A stretch of 64,000 bases of DNA from Thioalkalivibrio sp. K90mix (GTDB taxonomy: Bacteria; Pseudomonadota; Gammaproteobacteria; Ectothiorhodospirales; Ectothiorhodospiraceae): positions 923,501 to 987,500 of the forward strand of contig NC_013889.1 in the NCBI RefSeq assembly GCF_000025545.1, written 5' to 3'. The position numbers and the translations under genes were made by a program. Below are positions 22,521 through 35,745 of the stretch, in pieces. Each line of letters begins with the position of its first letter. The first letter of the stretch is position 1. A model generated the notes under the pieces. It searched no databases, had not been told where the DNA came from, and saw only the letters and a program-made list of their open reading frames with translations.

Positions 22521-22659
22521 GCGTTTCCCTGATGCATGACCATGATGGCCGTGTTCTGGTGTGTACTCATCATGCGCCGGGGCGGACGCGTTGTCAGGGT
22601 GTATCGCGTACCGAGTGCGATCGCTCGACAGGCCGACTGGGGGCACCGACAATGCCGGC

Positions 22660-24844
<2,185 letters not shown>

Positions 24845-24865
24845 GTTGATTCAGACGGAGTGGGT

Positions 24866-25894
24866 GTGAAACCAATCGGAAAGCCAGTCGCGATCGCCAG
24901 CCTGCTGGCGCTGCTGCTGTGCTGGCCGCTGTGGGCGCAGGCCGAGATCGAGGAGGGTTTCGATTTCGACGATGCGCCGCGCATCATCGGCCTGCACACC
25001 CCGGACTGGTTCGAGCTCAGCTTTCTCGATCTGCCGGAAGACCTGGAGCGCGCCGTGGAGCGCGGCAAGCAGGGCCTGGCCGTGTACTACGGGATGGACG
25101 ACTGCCCGTACTGCGAACAGCTGTTCGAGGTGAATTTCGAGAAGGAGGACATTCGCGCGCAGCTGTCGGACAATTTCGACGTGGTGGCGATCGACGTGCT
25201 CGGAAACCGCGAGGTCACGGGGCTCGATGGCGAGGTCCGGTTCGAACGCGAATATGCTTCTGAACAACGGCTTAACTTTACACCTTCAATTGCTTTCTAC
25301 GATGCTGACGGCGAGCGCATTCACCAAATGCGGGGCTATTACCCGCCGTATCGCTTCCGCGCGCTGCTCGACTATGTGACCGAGCGCCACGACCGCGAGA
25401 TGAGTTTCCGTGATTATCTCGACCGCGCCGATCCCCCGCCCAAGTTCGACACGGACGACATCAACGAGCGCGACTTCTTCATCAACGAGCCGTATGCGCT
25501 GGATCGCAGCAGAATTCCCGCTCAACGGCCCCTGGTGGTGTTCTTCGAGCGCGAGGCCTGCCATGCCTGCGATATCCTGCACACCGAGCCGTTGCAGGAA
25601 GACGAGGTGCTGGACCGCATCGCCCTGATGGATGCCGTCCAGCTGGACGCCGAGGACAGTGACACGCCGGTACTGACCCCGGACGGTCAGCGCACCAATC
25701 CGCGCGACTGGGCGGCGGAACTCGATGTGCACTGGGCGCCGACGCTGATCTTCTTTGACGAGGCGGGCGAGGAGATCATCCGCATCGACTCGGTCGTGCA
25801 CCTGAACCGGCTGCGCAACGTGATGGACTATGTGCTCACGCGCGGCTACGAGGACTATCCGACCTTCGAACGCTGGCGCGCCCAGCAACCATAG
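24866..25894 (+). CDS. Periplasmic protein with two thioredoxin-like domains
   Basis: A 342-residue secreted protein: signal peptide ending AQA near residue 26, then two thioredoxin-fold domains. The first has a CPYC active site (MDDCPYCEQLF, followed by a cis-Pro-like FTPSIAFYD), and the second has CHAC (EREACHACDILH, followed by APTLIFFD). It resembles SoxW-like thioredoxins of sulfur oxidisers, but duplicated. A GTG six bases earlier could also start it; GGAG spacing favours the later GTG. Role: disulfide or persulfide reduction in the periplasm, inferred. The gene ends just before a MITE. Confidence 0.8.
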   Translation: MKPIGKPVAIASLLALLLCWPLWAQAEIEEGFDFDDAPRIIGLHTPDWFELSFLDLPEDLERAVERGKQGLAVYYGMDDCPYCEQLFEVNFEKEDIRAQLSDNFDVVAIDVLGNREVTGLDGEVRFEREYASEQRLNFTPSIAFYDADGERIHQMRGYYPPYRFRALLDYVTERHDREMSFRDYLDRADPPPKFDTDDINERDFFINEPYALDRSRIPAQRPLVVFFEREACHACDILHTEPLQEDEVLDRIALMDAVQLDAEDSDTPVLTPDGQRTNPRDWAAELDVHWAPTLIFFDEAGEEIIRIDSVVHLNRLRNVMDYVLTRGYEDYPTFERWRAQQP

Positions 25895-25900
25895 CCGTAA

Positions 25901-25999
25901 GGGAAACACTGTCTAATGTACATGCTCGCGTTGGTACCCCACGGGGCTCGGCCGCCCGTTGTTATCAAGAATGGGCGCGCGCATTAATCAGTGTTTCCC
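25901..25999. mobile_element. Short internally deleted MITE (copy B)
   Basis: About 99 bp bounded by inverted GGGAAACACTG and CAGTGTTTCCC. The inside keeps only the outer parts of the full element, including the CTCGGCCGCCCGTTGTT block. The flanks read TAA on the left and TGG on the right, so the TA duplication seen at other copies has decayed here or was never present. Confidence 0.75.
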
Positions 26000-26021
26000 T
26001 GGCGGCCGAGGACCGAACTGC

Positions 26022-26429
26022 ATGCATTTCGAACGTGACTTCGTCCTGCGCAATCGCGATGTGCTGGAGGGCATTGTGGCCCGTGCCCATCGTGTCGCGC
26101 TGGGGATCTTCGTGCTGACCTTCAGTGGCTACGGCATCGCCGTCTGGCTGTGGTTCCAGGAGCAGATGTGGGCGGCACTAATTACCGCGACCGTCAGCTA
26201 CCTGGTGTTTCGCCAGTTCCGGATGCTGGCGCTGGGGATCGCGCGCATGCCGCTGCGAGGGGACCCCGCGGCGCTGGAGGCGACCCGGGCACTGGATAAC
26301 GCGCTGGAAGAGGACCGGCCGCACCCGGTGCTGGCGGAGCTGGAGGCCCACCTGCGGGCGCTGGACGAGGAGGGATCCCCGGAGGCGCCGTCGGAAGAGA
26401 GTGAAGACGGCCGGTCGGGCCGGGACTAG
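26022..26429 (+). CDS. Small membrane protein of unknown function
   Basis: A 135-residue protein with two predicted membrane helices (HRVALGIFVLTFSGYGIAVW and MWAALITATVSYLVF) and an acidic, Glu-rich C-terminal tail that is probably cytoplasmic. I do not recognise the family. The start MHFERDF has GAGGA upstream; an earlier in-frame ATG lies inside the preceding MITE and is rejected. Its TAG stop is formed by a TA plus the first G of the next MITE, so the stop was rebuilt by that insertion. Confidence 0.65.
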   Translation: MHFERDFVLRNRDVLEGIVARAHRVALGIFVLTFSGYGIAVWLWFQEQMWAALITATVSYLVFRQFRMLALGIARMPLRGDPAALEATRALDNALEEDRPHPVLAELEAHLRALDEEGSPEAPSEESEDGRSGRD

Positions 26430-26726
26430 GGAGACGCTGATTTAATCGCACGTCCGCGTTGGTGCCCCCTGTTTTCCGAGACAAGGCGCGTCGTGTAGCG
26501 GGTAGTGGTTCTACCCGCAAGCGGCGCAACGCAGGATCGGGGAACAGGGAGCACCAACCCCACAAGCTATTGAAAGCAGGGGCTCGGCCGCCCGTTGTTG
26601 ATCAAAAACGGGCGCGGGAACGGCGTTGCGGCTCCTTTGTGCAGAATGACTGCACGGCAGTCACCGCGCCTTGTTCCCGCGCAAAAGCGACTCGAGCGCG
26701 GACGTGCGATTAAATCAGCGTCTCCC
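26429..26726. mobile_element. Full-length 298-bp MITE (copy C)
   Basis: A non-autonomous element with perfect 30-bp terminal inverted repeats (26429-26458 and 26697-26726, outer end GGGAGACGCTGATTTAATCG) flanked by TA on both sides (26427-26428 and 26727-26728). It contains no gene. Inside are a GTGCAG/CTGCAC-type hairpin and a CGGCCGCCCGTTGTTGATC block shared with other copies. TA duplication suggests mobilisation by an IS630/Tc1-mariner-type transposase, which is not present in this window. Confidence 0.88.
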
Positions 26727-27049
26727 TAGAGCTCGACGCGTACGCCCAGCTTCTGCCCGATCACGCGGGCCACGGTCTCGTGCAGGTCGTCCCCGTTACG
26801 GTCATCCAGCCAGGCATCTTCGTCCTCGTTGTAGCCGAAGTGGGCCGGTCCCTCGGGCGAGGACAGCCAGATCTGCTGTGCGGCCTCCTGGCGGTTCAGG
26901 ATCATCTGCGCCCCGTCCTCGAACTCGAGGGTCAGGACACCGTCGATCAGGTCGATGTCCAGGTCGTCGAGACCGTCCTGGTCGCTCAGGCGGTTGTAGA
27001 TCTCGTCGAGGGTCTGTTCGGCAAATACGGCGAAGGAGGGCTGGCTCAT
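26726..27049 (-). CDS. cyaY: Frataxin-like iron-sulfur assembly protein CyaY
   Basis: A 107-residue frataxin homologue: acidic first helix (EQTLDEIYNRLSDQDGLDDLDIDL), then the beta-sheet with DGVLTLEFEDGAQMILNRQ, QQIWLSSPEGPAHFGY and a C-terminal helix. CyaY binds iron and modulates IscS in Fe-S cluster assembly. Its length is normal. The TAG stop is shared with the end of MITE copy C. Before that insertion, this stop and the stop of the convergent gene would have met in a single palindromic CTAG. Confidence 0.93.
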   Translation of the reverse strand: MSQPSFAVFAEQTLDEIYNRLSDQDGLDDLDIDLIDGVLTLEFEDGAQMILNRQEAAQQIWLSSPEGPAHFGYNEDEDAWLDDRNGDDLHETVARVIGQKLGVRVEL

Positions 27050-27539: not shown

Positions 27540-27541
27540 TA

Positions 27542-27745
27542 GGGAAACACTGACCGATGTACACGCTCGCCGCTTCGTCGCATTTGCGTTCGAACAAGGC
27601 GTGGCGACGGCCGTGCAGTCATTCTGCACAAGGGAGCCGCAGCGCCGTGCGCGTGCCCGTTTTTATCAACAACGGGCGGCCGAGCCCCTGCATTGAATGG
27701 TTTGTGGGGTACCAACGCGAGTGTGTACATCGATCAGTGTTTCCC
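27542..27745. mobile_element. 204-bp MITE splitting two coupled genes (copy D)
   Basis: Bounded by GGGAAACACTGA and TCAGTGTTTCCC, flanked by TA at 27540-27541 and 27746-27747. It is a shorter relative of copies C and E: it shares the GTGCAGTCATTCTGCAC hairpin and CGGGCGGCCGAGCCCCTGC block but lacks about 100 bp. It lies between two - strand genes that overlap as TAATG when the element is removed. Confidence 0.86.
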
Positions 27746-28083
27746 TAGGCGTCGTCGCCCATGTCGCTATCGTAGTCCTGCCCGGGCACCCAGCCGTGTT
27801 CCCGGGCCCGCGCGATCGCTGCATCGTGGATGCGCGTGTGGCGTTCACGCAGATCGGGCGGGAGGTTGGCAATGCGCAGGTCGTACTTGTCCCATTCGGC
27901 GTTGACCTGGTCGTGCAGCTGCTGGATGCGGCCGAGGTCCCAGCCCTCGCAGGTCTCGGTCTCCGGCAGGAAGCCGAAAACCCAGGCATCGCGGATAATA
28001 TTGCCGACCGGCGTCATGCCGCCGTACAAGTCATTGTGGATGCCGACGTAGTGGCGGCTTCCGGAGCGTCTGGCTGTAGTCAT
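27745..28083 (-). CDS. Conserved-looking small protein of unknown function
   Basis: A 112-residue soluble protein with many aromatic residues in its first half (HYVGIHNDLYGGMTPVGNII, then WVFGFLPETETCEGWDLG) and an amphipathic helical second half ending DYDSDMGDDA. No family or catalytic motif is recognised, and there is no signal peptide or membrane helix. It was likely coupled to the DUF423 gene before MITE copy D inserted. The TAG stop is formed at the MITE junction. It is divergent from the Rieske-like gene, sharing a 62-bp upstream region. A start 13 codons further upstream is possible but less likely. Confidence 0.68.
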   Translation of the reverse strand: MTTARRSGSRHYVGIHNDLYGGMTPVGNIIRDAWVFGFLPETETCEGWDLGRIQQLHDQVNAEWDKYDLRIANLPPDLRERHTRIHDAAIARAREHGWVPGQDYDSDMGDDA

Positions 28084-28145
28084 CCGCGTAGTGTAGAGGC
28101 ACGCCGGCCAGCCGCAAAGCACATTTCGTTATTGGTGGAGACCTG

Positions 28146-28709
28146 ATGATACAGCCCGCGGGCGACAGCCTGAATCGAATGCGGATCCGCGCTCTGCTGA
28201 AGCTGATGGTGCTGGGGGCTGTGATCGTGTTTGCCGGTGTGCTGGGGAGTTACGCGCTGTCCGTGCTGGGGGGTGGGGAGAGCGAGCGTCGCATCGTGGA
28301 GCTGGATGGGATCGGGCCCGGCGAGCTCAAGCGACTGGACTGGGAAGGCCGGCGCATCCTTGTTCTGCACCGTGATTCCGACCTGCAGCAGGCGCTGGGC
28401 AAGGACGATGAGCTGGTGGATCCGCGCGCCCGTCGCGGTCAGCAGCCGGACGGGCTGGAGCTGCCACTGCGCAGCCTGCGGCCACAGTGGCTGGTGGTGA
28501 TCGGCGAGAGCACCGATCTCGGCTGCGAGCTGGATCTGGTTCATCCGGACGAGGCCGATGGCTGGTCCGGCGGGTTTGTCGATCGCTGCCGTGGCGGTCG
28601 CTACGACGCCGCCGGGCGGGTGTATGACGGGCAGGATGCCCGGCGCAACCTGTCCATCCCCGAGTATCGCTTCTCTGGAGACGACCGGCTGATTCTGGGT
28701 GGTTCGTAA
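28146..28709 (+). CDS. Rieske-fold membrane protein lacking all cluster ligands
   Basis: A 187-residue protein with one N-terminal membrane helix (about residues 17-41) and a C-terminal domain that aligns along its length with Rieske subunits of cytochrome bc1 (WLVVIGES, then YDAAGRVYDGQDARRNLSIPEY). The two Fe-S boxes are degenerate: C-T-H-L-G-C reads S122-T-D124-L-G-C127, and C-P-C-H-G-S reads D146-R-C148-R149-G-G. All four ligand positions are replaced, while both disulfide cysteines (127 and 148) remain. It therefore cannot bind a Rieske cluster. Function unknown. Confidence 0.8.
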   Translation: MIQPAGDSLNRMRIRALLKLMVLGAVIVFAGVLGSYALSVLGGGESERRIVELDGIGPGELKRLDWEGRRILVLHRDSDLQQALGKDDELVDPRARRGQQPDGLELPLRSLRPQWLVVIGESTDLGCELDLVHPDEADGWSGGFVDRCRGGRYDAAGRVYDGQDARRNLSIPEYRFSGDDRLILGGS

Positions 28710-28742: not shown

Positions 28743-29495
28743 TCAGGATTGCGCGGTGGGTGCGTAGACGTCGAAACGCACGCTCTTGCCCCTGACGCTG
28801 CCCTGGGGCGTGTCGGGACCCAGGGCAGGGGCATGCAGGGGCCGCTTGACGACGACCCGTCGCGTGGCCGCGTTGCGCAGCGTCTGCAGTGTGGTTTCCG
28901 GCTCGGGATCCGGGTCGCCCTCCATCAGGGCCTGGGTCAGCTGCATGTCCTTCTTGACCGCGGCGCGCTTGGCCCGCTCCGGGAACATGGGATCGAATAC
29001 GGCGGCGACGGGCGGCGTGCTCAGGGTGCCCGGCGCGGCCAGGCCCGCGTGCAGCGTGATGCGCTCGACGATCGGGGCCAGCGCCTCGTCATGGGCGGCG
29101 CGCTGCAGGGCATCCGCCAGCAGCAGGTAGACGACCGGGTGGCGTTCCCAGGCGTCCACGCGGAAGCCGTGCGCGGCCAGCAGCAGCGTATCGCGCCCCA
29201 GGCCCGCCGTGGCGTCTACCACATGGCTGTCCCGCGGGATATTGCCCATGGCCCGGATCAGGCCCTCTCGCTGGCGCCCGCTGTGCGCCAGACGATACCC
29301 CTGACGGCCGGTGGCAAAGTCCAGATGCAGACGCAGTTCGCGCCGGCCCTCCTCGCGGATCAGCGACAGCCCGTCCGCGCCGACCTCCAGTACCAGGGGT
29401 GCGCCCAGGTGACGATAGCCATGGGCTTGCAGGTCGCGGTCGATCTCCCCGGCTCGGGCCTCCTGCCCGGGTTCTGCGCGGATTTGAAGCGTCAC
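28743..29495 (-). CDS. rsmJ: 16S rRNA m2G1516 methyltransferase RsmJ
   Basis: A 250-residue SAM-dependent methyltransferase, the same length as E. coli RsmJ. Recognisable segments include LHLDFATGRQGYRLAHSG, the SAM-binding VVDATAGLGRDTLLLA and the catalytic-region FDPMFPERAKRA. It methylates guanine 1516 of 16S rRNA. The GTG start lies 2 bp downstream of the slyX stop; a longer frame overlapping slyX is rejected. It forms a compact - strand run with slyX and the dehydrogenase gene. Confidence 0.93.
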   Translation of the reverse strand: MTLQIRAEPGQEARAGEIDRDLQAHGYRHLGAPLVLEVGADGLSLIREEGRRELRLHLDFATGRQGYRLAHSGRQREGLIRAMGNIPRDSHVVDATAGLGRDTLLLAAHGFRVDAWERHPVVYLLLADALQRAAHDEALAPIVERITLHAGLAAPGTLSTPPVAAVFDPMFPERAKRAAVKKDMQLTQALMEGDPDPEPETTLQTLRNAATRRVVVKRPLHAPALGPDTPQGSVRGKSVRFDVYAPTAQS

Positions 29496-29497
29496 GG

Positions 29498-29740
29498 TCA
29501 GTAGTGCGGCGGAGGCGGCTCGTTGTCGGCTCCAGGACTGCCACCCTGGTCCTCGAGTTCCCGCAACCGGTCGCGGAGCCACTGGAGCTGGCGGCGCAGT
29601 TCCTGGTTGTCCTGCTGTAGCGCGTGCTGGACGCGAGCCTGCACTTCCTGGGTGTACTCCTGATGGGCCAGGCGAACCTCCAGCGCCTCGATCCGCGCGA
29701 TGAGTTCGTGGTCGGTGCGGGATGGATCAGCTGACGACAT
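29498..29740 (-). CDS. slyX: SlyX family coiled-coil protein
   Basis: An 80-residue protein that is nearly all heptad-like coiled coil (IARIEALEVRLAHQEYTQEV, then QQDNQELRRQLQWLRDRLRELE) and ends in the Pro-Pro-Pro-Pro-His-Tyr tail characteristic of SlyX. Molecular function is unknown. It overlaps the start region of rsmJ closely and overlaps the upstream dehydrogenase end by 14 bp, indicating a coupled operon. Confidence 0.9.
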   Translation of the reverse strand: MSSADPSRTDHELIARIEALEVRLAHQEYTQEVQARVQHALQQDNQELRRQLQWLRDRLRELEDQGGSPGADNEPPPPHY

Positions 29741-34779: not shown

Positions 34780-34792
34780 GGGAGACGCTGAC
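34780..34792. repeat. Solo MITE terminus abutting copy E
   Basis: GGGAGACGCTGAC between TA dinucleotides (34778-34779 and 34793-34794), directly in front of full-length copy E. It looks like the end left by a second element that inserted next door and was lost, or a tandem end duplication. Confidence 0.7.
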
Positions 34793-34794
34793 TA

Positions 34795-35092
34795 GGGAGA
34801 CGCTGATTGAATCGCGCGTCCGCGCTCGAGTCGCTTTTGCGTGCGAACAAGGCGCGGTGACTGCCGTGCAGTCATTCTGCACAAGGGAACCGCAACGTTG
34901 TGCGCGCGCCCGTTTTTGATCAACAACGGGCGGCCGAGCCCCTGCTTTGAATGGCTGGTGGGGCTGGTGCCCCCTGTTCCCCGATCCTGCGTTGCGCCGC
35001 TTGTGGGTAGAACCACTACCCGCTGCACGACGCGCCTTGTCTCGGAAAACAGGGGGCACCAACGCGGACGTGCGATTCAATCAGCGTCTCCC
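34795..35092. mobile_element. Full-length 298-bp MITE, inverted relative to copy C (copy E)
   Basis: Exactly as long as copy C (298 bp) and highly similar to it in the opposite orientation. Its ends are GGGAGACGCTGATTGAATCG and its inverse, and it is flanked by TA at 34793-34794 and 35093-35094. It contains no gene. It fills most of the 443-bp gap between the Gln-rich protein gene and the methyltransferase gene, whose TAG stop forms at its right edge. The remaining 34649-34779 shows nothing recognisable. Confidence 0.88.
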
Positions 35093-35745
35093 TAGGGCCG
35101 TGGGGTTCCGAAAAGCGCAATGTCCGGCGCCGTCAGGTGGATCTCCCAGCCAAGATGCGCGGCGATCCAGCGCAGGGTGTCGGGCCCGTAGAAGGCCACA
35201 TGGGTGGGGTCTCGGCGATAGTGCCAACGATGAAAGGCCGCCGCGGGAGGCGGCCAGCCGGTCATGATCGCCAGCGTGCCGCCGGGGCGCAGAAGGGCGG
35301 CCATCCCCGCAAGTGTGGCGATCGGGTCATGCAGGTGTTCGAGGACCTCGGTACAGGTGACGAGATCGAAGCATTCGCCGGCGTGCGGGCGGTCGGGCGC
35401 AAAAACCGGATCAAAGGCCTGCATGGAATAGCCCCGCGCACGCAGCATGTCCGCCAGTACCGGATGAGGGCCACAGCCCCAGTCAAGGCCCTGTGCTGGC
35501 GGTGGACAGTGCGCCTCCAGCGGCGCAAGCAGGCGGCCCAGGAAGCGCCGATATCCGGCATCATCCGGGCGGTTCTCGTGCGTCTGGTAGTAGTCGCGCT
35601 CGAAGTTGGGTGTGGGCCAGTACTCGCGCTCGAGGACGATCAGGGAACAATGGCGACAGCGCTGGTAACCCCCGGGCGAGGGATCACGCACCCCGCGGCT
35701 GAAGAACGGGTGCAGAAGGCTGGCGCACAACGGACATCGGGCCAT
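35092..35745 (-). CDS. SAM-dependent methyltransferase with N-terminal zinc ribbon
   Basis: A 217-residue class I methyltransferase. The N-terminus carries a CPLC...CRHC pair (Cys4 and Cys7, then Cys30 and Cys33 approximately) that should bind zinc. The SAM site is LDWGCGPHPVLADML, with the later segment FDLVTCTEVLEHLHDP typical of Methyltransf_11/23-type enzymes. The substrate is unknown. The gene is bracketed by MITE copy E at its 3' end, which forms its stop codon, and a solo MITE terminus just before its start, so it may have been carried or framed by these elements. Confidence 0.82.
   Translation of the reverse strand: MARCPLCASLLHPFFSRGVRDPSPGGYQRCRHCSLIVLEREYWPTPNFERDYYQTHENRPDDAGYRRFLGRLLAPLEAHCPPPAQGLDWGCGPHPVLADMLRARGYSMQAFDPVFAPDRPHAGECFDLVTCTEVLEHLHDPIATLAGMAALLRPGGTLAIMTGWPPPAAAFHRWHYRRDPTHVAFYGPDTLRWIAAHLGWEIHLTAPDIALFGTPRP

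Follow-up and report, generated by a model that had tools for sequence, protein, structure and literature searches.

The window analysed here, a 64,000-nucleotide stretch of Thioalkalivibrio sp. K90mix DNA, carries a gene for a putative cluster-free paralogue of the Rieske protein, referred to below as pseudo-Rieske. It follows cyaY, a DUF423 gene, and a gene for a 120-residue protein, all three on the minus strand, and is itself on the plus strand; rsmJ, again on the minus strand, comes next. The 187-residue open reading frame has the coordinates and reading frame given in the original prediction. The features of the locus are as follows.

27745-28110, minus strand: divergent neighbour, a conserved protein of about 120 residues (family A3), beside pseudo-Rieske in 18 of 23 loci, window included
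28134-28140, plus strand: GGTGGAG, resembling a ribosome-binding site as read from the sequence, with the ATG five bases downstream
28146-28709, plus strand: pseudo-Rieske gene, 187 residues, a predicted cluster-free Rieske-fold paralogue, assigned from profile and PDB matches, a structure model, and its relatives
28743-29582, minus strand: convergent neighbour, an rsmJ-type methyltransferase gene (Pfam SAM_MT), next to pseudo-Rieske or close to it in 22 of 23 loci

The product matches bc1 Rieske subunits across residues 24-185 when the PDB is searched with phmmer, with 8smr_C (E = 1.4e-26) and 7yr9_A (E = 6e-25) as the best matches. Together with the match to NCBIfam model TIGR01416 (E = 6.6e-23), the E value of the best PDB match excludes chance similarity. 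The TIGR01416 score of 81.6 bits lies below the curated cut-off of 97.4, and the true PetA of the same genome scores 210.9 bits. Judged by sequence and model, pseudo-Rieske is clearly homologous to the bc1 Rieske subunit. No Pfam Rieske model is matched by the pseudo-Rieske protein or by 23 family members, and the family is therefore missed by Pfam-based surveys. A 91% identical protein is encoded on a contig of Thioalkalivibrio sp. ALJ21.

The same gene order, incomplete in some genomes, is seen again in families f1, f127, and f151, and in f126 without the 120-residue gene; in f145, pseudo-Rieske is divergent from rsmJ. The original prediction had offered a subunit of an electron-transfer complex as a possible role. 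No genes for such a complex accompany it: neither petB, petC, nor any other gene of an electron-transfer complex is adjacent to it in the 23 loci, and that assignment is no more than a hypothesis. The 120-residue family, which has no match in Pfam or NCBIfam, bears the motif GIHNDLYGGMTPxGxIIKDAWVFGLxPETETCEGW and occurs in 112 of 369 gammaproteobacterial genomes. It was considered as an obligate partner and rejected, since most of the 112 genomes have no pseudo-Rieske and the gene then lies elsewhere; it is at most a facultative neighbour. Two further candidate associations were dropped: HiPIP is present in the tested f1 and f145 genomes and lacking in the four remaining gene-bearing families that were tested, and dsrA (reverse dissimilatory sulfite reductase) was found in just 3 of 14 gene-bearing genomes tested.

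Further upstream, positions 24860-25894 (plus strand) encode a protein in which two stretches, with CPYC and CHAC motifs, are thioredoxin-like; it has a signal-peptide-like start and weak similarity to DsbD-type domains. This gene is 3 kb from pseudo-Rieske and is found near it in 12 of 23 loci. Positions 25959-26429 (plus strand) encode a conserved small membrane-type protein with no match in Pfam or NCBIfam, located about 2 kb upstream in 19 loci.

Ligand positions, disulfide, and predicted fold

Rieske proteins are a standard example of a fold organized around its cofactor. In HMMER alignments of pseudo-Rieske with cluster-bearing Rieske sequences, S122-T-D124-L-G-C127 (STDLGC) aligns on CTHLGC and D146-R-C148-R149-G (DRCRGG) on CPCHGS, in agreement with the original placement of S122, D124, D146, and R149 at the ligand positions. 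In Thermochromatium tepidum PetA (TtPetA), the corresponding cluster is held by Cys124, His126, Cys152, and His155, and Cys129-Cys154 is the disulfide (PMC10492824). Conservation at these positions was read from 60 distinct relatives drawn from six gammaproteobacterial families, as listed here (all on the plus strand).

28509-28511: S122, at the position of the first Cys ligand; S or G in 58/60, never C
28515-28517: D124, at the position of the first His ligand; D in 57/60, never H
28524-28526: C127, disulfide partner; C in 60/60
28581-28583: D146, at the position of the second Cys ligand; D in 59/60, never C
28587-28589: C148, disulfide partner; C in 60/60
28590-28592: R149, at the position of the second His ligand; R in 57/60, never H

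Not one of the four [2Fe-2S] ligands is found in any of the 60 family sequences, whereas all four are present in the comparison Rieske proteins (64/64 and 63/63). A search for homologues with the same substitutions thus returned 60 distinct sequences in which the replacements are nearly fixed, and a frameshift or sequencing error that conceals the ligands is excluded because the ligands are absent in 60/60 distinct relatives. The disulfide pair, which had been described as retained, is complete in every family member as well as in the cluster-bearing proteins (64/64 and 63/63), and the C127-C148 bond is predicted to form. Two further positions characterize the group, Q163 (58/60) and R167 (48/60, with K in 6).

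The loss is selective. Of the 44 columns that are at least 95% conserved in true Rieske proteins, the family retains 21 in at least 90% of its sequences and has almost wholly lost nine: those of the four ligands, P129, R67, the hinge alanine A47, and prolines 32 and 39 of the anchor. Among individual prolines, P129 is replaced by L, V, or I and P147 mostly by R, P164 is varied, and P166 has become R, D, or M. The ligand set, the adjoining proline, and details of anchor and hinge are therefore gone, and the structural core is retained. Compared with PetA (TIGR01416; 8smr_C, 7yr9), pseudo-Rieske shares the fold, the N-terminal anchor, the disulfide pair, and the core residues R76, D92, P101, R109, D154, GRV, NL, and P172. 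In contrast to PetA, it has none of the four ligands, neither the hinge alanine nor the anchor prolines, no Tat motif, and only part of the Pro loop; it is encoded apart from petBC, and its score falls below the TIGR01416 cut-off. The protein would no longer be able to carry electrons in the usual way. The C-terminal tail had been recognized correctly, although its spacing is GRV-x2-G-x5-NL-x2-P, with five residues rather than four from G162 to NL. The central claim of the original prediction, selective ligand loss with retention of fold and disulfide, is borne out, and the conservation demands a function.

At the N-terminus, two features stand out.

28176-28190, plus strand: R11-R15, the remnant of the Tat region, with R11 kept and R15 invariant by column comparison
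28191-28259, plus strand: single membrane-spanning helix, residues about 16-38, with near-invariant K19, predicted from a hydropathy peak of 2.38 and the model

The anchor had been taken as kept, and as a helix it is; its sequence has been rewritten, with the loss of prolines 32 and 39, near-invariant in true Rieske proteins, and the gain of R15 and K19. R15 is present in 59/59 family sequences, at a position where true Rieske proteins have T, V, I, or L, and K19 in 58/59, and the two place charge in a formerly hydrophobic stretch. True bacterial Rieske proteins bear a Tat signal, since the cluster is loaded before export. In the family, R or Y stands in place of F13 of the Tat motif, and an RRxFL-like motif (RRx-hydrophobic-hydrophobic) is found in 7/60 sequences versus 58/64 true Rieske sequences. 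Loss of the motif is what one would expect if there is no cluster to load before export, and the N-terminus suggests a protein that has no further need of Tat. In 28/60 sequences, however, R11 is still preceded by an arginine at position 10, and with this twin arginine some relatives may be exported by Tat.

The AlphaFold model of pseudo-Rieske, built from an input alignment of 31 relatives, has a pLDDT of 89.5 and consists of one long N-terminal helix (residues 5-44) and a beta head. Its head superimposes best on 7yr9 (Z = 21.8, rmsd 1.5 Å across 140 residues), and full-length 8smr also aligns. The model of a distant f145 member (G397; pLDDT 92.3) gives the same picture (Z = 23.2, rmsd 1.5 Å over 141 residues to 7yr9). 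Structure prediction thus yields the Rieske fold that the original prediction had assumed. The entry 7yr9 is the Zn-bound immature form of TtPetA, in which the site is formed before cluster insertion and the fold of the Zn-loaded precursor forms without [2Fe-2S] (PMC10492824). Pseudo-Rieske resembles this form in completing the fold without the cluster, and differs from it in that TtPetA keeps all of its ligands and can be reconstituted (PMC10492824). In the old pocket of pseudo-Rieske, D124 and R149 are probably close enough for a side-chain salt bridge.

Clade, selection, and distribution

In a maximum-likelihood tree of 123 sequences (59 family members and 64 ligand-bearing Rieske proteins), the family lies on one side of a single branch from true Rieske proteins with support of 100/100; branches in this tree are long and the bootstrap is incompletely settled, so that the inner order is less sure. 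Values of dN/dS among pseudo-Rieske orthologues are 0.05-0.23, compared with 0.05-0.20 for true petA, and on these rates the family is under purifying selection.

The second, ligand-bearing Rieske gene of the same genome, whose existence elsewhere had been left to be checked, is found at G000:C1:2336910-2337473. It sits in petABC (G000:C1:2.335-2.338 Mb) with full-length cytochrome b and c1. Because this intact petABC lies elsewhere in the genome, pseudo-Rieske is read as an ancient paralogue and not as a ruined petA. The true copy is also seen in 25 of the 26 Thioalkalivibrio genomes that bear the pseudo-Rieske gene, the exception being 58% complete. Lacking all of the ligands by which the Rieske iron-sulfur family is defined, pseudo-Rieske does not belong to that family, and the name petA is unsuitable for it.

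Within Thioalkalivibrio, 26 of 30 genomes carry the gene. The four exceptions include two (G003 and G008) in which the locus has been cut off, since the adjacent 120-residue gene forms the very start of a contig, and two that are 67% and 77% complete. In genus g5 each of the ten genomes has it, and in genus g3 four out of five do, the fifth carrying a broken fragment; the one g4 genome (98% complete) and the one g2 genome (81%) both lack it. One assembly with 82% completeness and 5% contamination (G066) has just a broken fragment with an in-frame TGA. Outside the window's family, the gene occurs in five more gammaproteobacterial families (f145, f20, f126, f127, and f151), of which f145 contributes 20 sequences that were fetched and read. 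Only fetched sequences were counted, because a profile score near 150 bits does not by itself separate distant cluster-free proteins from true Rieske proteins. In a sample of 398 genomes from across the phylum, the best 30 matches, the window aside, are ordinary ligand-bearing Rieske proteins.

Precedents and candidate roles

The nearest precedent, compared by its published description, is the deranged Rieske protein (ISP) of Acidocella (Acetobacteraceae), which has lost three or four ligands and kept the disulfide cysteines; the bc1 complex to which it belongs is deranged too, with ligands also missing from its cytochrome b (PMC10715153). The likeness lies in ligand loss combined with kept disulfide cysteines. 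Unlike the Acidocella ISP, pseudo-Rieske is an extra paralogue beside intact petABC, belongs to Gammaproteobacteria, and forms an old single clade with fixed replacements.

A Rieske-like fold without cluster ligands is also known from Escherichia coli NirD, the small subunit of assimilatory nitrite reductase, a soluble cytoplasmic protein that works with NirB. Pseudo-Rieske is like NirD in keeping the fold without a cluster, and unlike it in having a predicted membrane helix and in being near the bc1 Rieske subunit in sequence; no nirB was seen among its neighbours in the 23 loci. A search of the open-access full-text literature found no paper on cluster-free Rieske paralogues from Thioalkalivibrio or other Gammaproteobacteria.

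Our preferred reading, to which we give an even chance, is that an anciently duplicated bc1 Rieske paralogue gave up its [2Fe-2S] cluster a single time and has been maintained in a non-redox role, most likely as a membrane-anchored periplasmic scaffold or as a docking or assembly partner. The protein would be anchored in the inner membrane by its one N-terminal helix; with the Tat motif gone, Sec/YidC seems a likelier route of insertion than Tat, since no folded metalloprotein would have to be exported. The beta-sandwich head, stabilized by the C127-C148 disulfide, would lie on the periplasmic side, and a fixed set of polar residues (S/G122, D124, D146, and R149, with R167 and Q163) would fill the former cluster pocket. 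Within this set the D124-R149 pair would form the probable salt bridge, and D146 would sit in the niche that once bound sulfide. In true Rieske proteins the tip is hydrophobic and rich in prolines; here it may have become a charged docking surface. The respiratory chain would be the first candidate partner, on descent alone. Tentatively, and with the chances somewhat against it, we propose further that pseudo-Rieske represents an undescribed, non-redox kind of Rieske-family protein shared by several gammaproteobacterial families, in which the Asp/Asp/Arg motif that replaced the cluster site once and became fixed is a periplasmic interaction site for assembly or organization of the respiratory chain.

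Descent from PetA and coexistence with petABC would also fit a protein that fills the Rieske position in cytochrome b-c1 subassemblies during assembly or stress, as a placeholder or regulator that keeps the Qo site closed until PetA arrives, and retention of 21 of the 44 near-invariant PetA columns in at least 90% of sequences is consistent with this. The features expected to dock on cytochrome b are altered, however, with changes at P129, P147, P164, and P166 and loss of hinge A47 and of prolines 32 and 39. Because these docking residues have changed, a simple placeholder at the Qo site is less likely, and we consider this explanation unlikely overall. For the scaffold role too, the changed tip and anchor speak against a simple fit into the Qo pocket of bc1.

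The original prediction had also raised a redox-disulfide function. Here, the C127-C148 pair, which the fold puts beside the former cluster and which cluster loss could expose, would act as a periplasmic electron shuttle or redox sensor, perhaps with thioredoxin-like partners such as the product of the gene 3 kb upstream. Both cysteines are invariant in the family, but they are equally invariant in cluster-bearing Rieske proteins, where they are structural, and their retention is therefore no specific evidence for a redox role. Pseudo-Rieske has no CXXC motif, and the thioredoxin-like gene, at 2.5 to 9 kb where it is near and elsewhere not near, looks like background synteny. We regard such a function as improbable.

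A new metal site is a doubtful prospect, and we would be surprised to see it confirmed. In this explanation D124, D146, and S122 bind Ca2+, Zn2+, or another ion in a metal-sensing or metal-stabilized adaptor. Two near-invariant aspartates do replace ligands in the same cavity, and the cavity of wild-type PetA can bind Zn (PMC10492824), yet by homology the positive R149 (57/60) shares that cavity, and neither a conserved His nor a free Cys is available to complete a site. A degenerate, functionless copy or sequencing artefact, to which the loss of all ligands and the broken fragment in G066 might point, is already refuted by the identical pattern in 60/60 sequences, the low dN/dS, the one old clade, and the presence in 26 of 30 Thioalkalivibrio genomes, and has next to no probability.

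What distinguishes the retained paralogue is that the cofactor has apparently been removed and one replacement motif fixed, with fold, disulfide, and anchor under strong selection beside a working copy. If confirmed, it would show the recycling of an electron-transfer subunit for another role and offer a natural experiment for telling the residues that Rieske proteins need for the fold from those needed for the cluster. It would also be a warning that similarity-based naming can label such non-electron-carrying genes petA.

Other features of the window

Positions 26421-26729 and 34792-35100 form a 309-nucleotide inverted pair, 94% complementary and with terminal inverted repeats (CTAGGGAGACGCTGATT...), and shorter relatives are found at 27540-27747 and 25894-26006. 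These elements resemble a miniature mobile (MITE-like) family, and one of them lies between the DUF423 gene and the 120-residue gene. Three tandem 289-nucleotide repeats (90-94%) at 910-1891 appear by eye to encode paralogous carboxysome shell proteins of the CsoS1 type, and positions 22561-23468, upstream of serS, hold what by eye are two adjacent genes for CrcB-type fluoride channel subunits.
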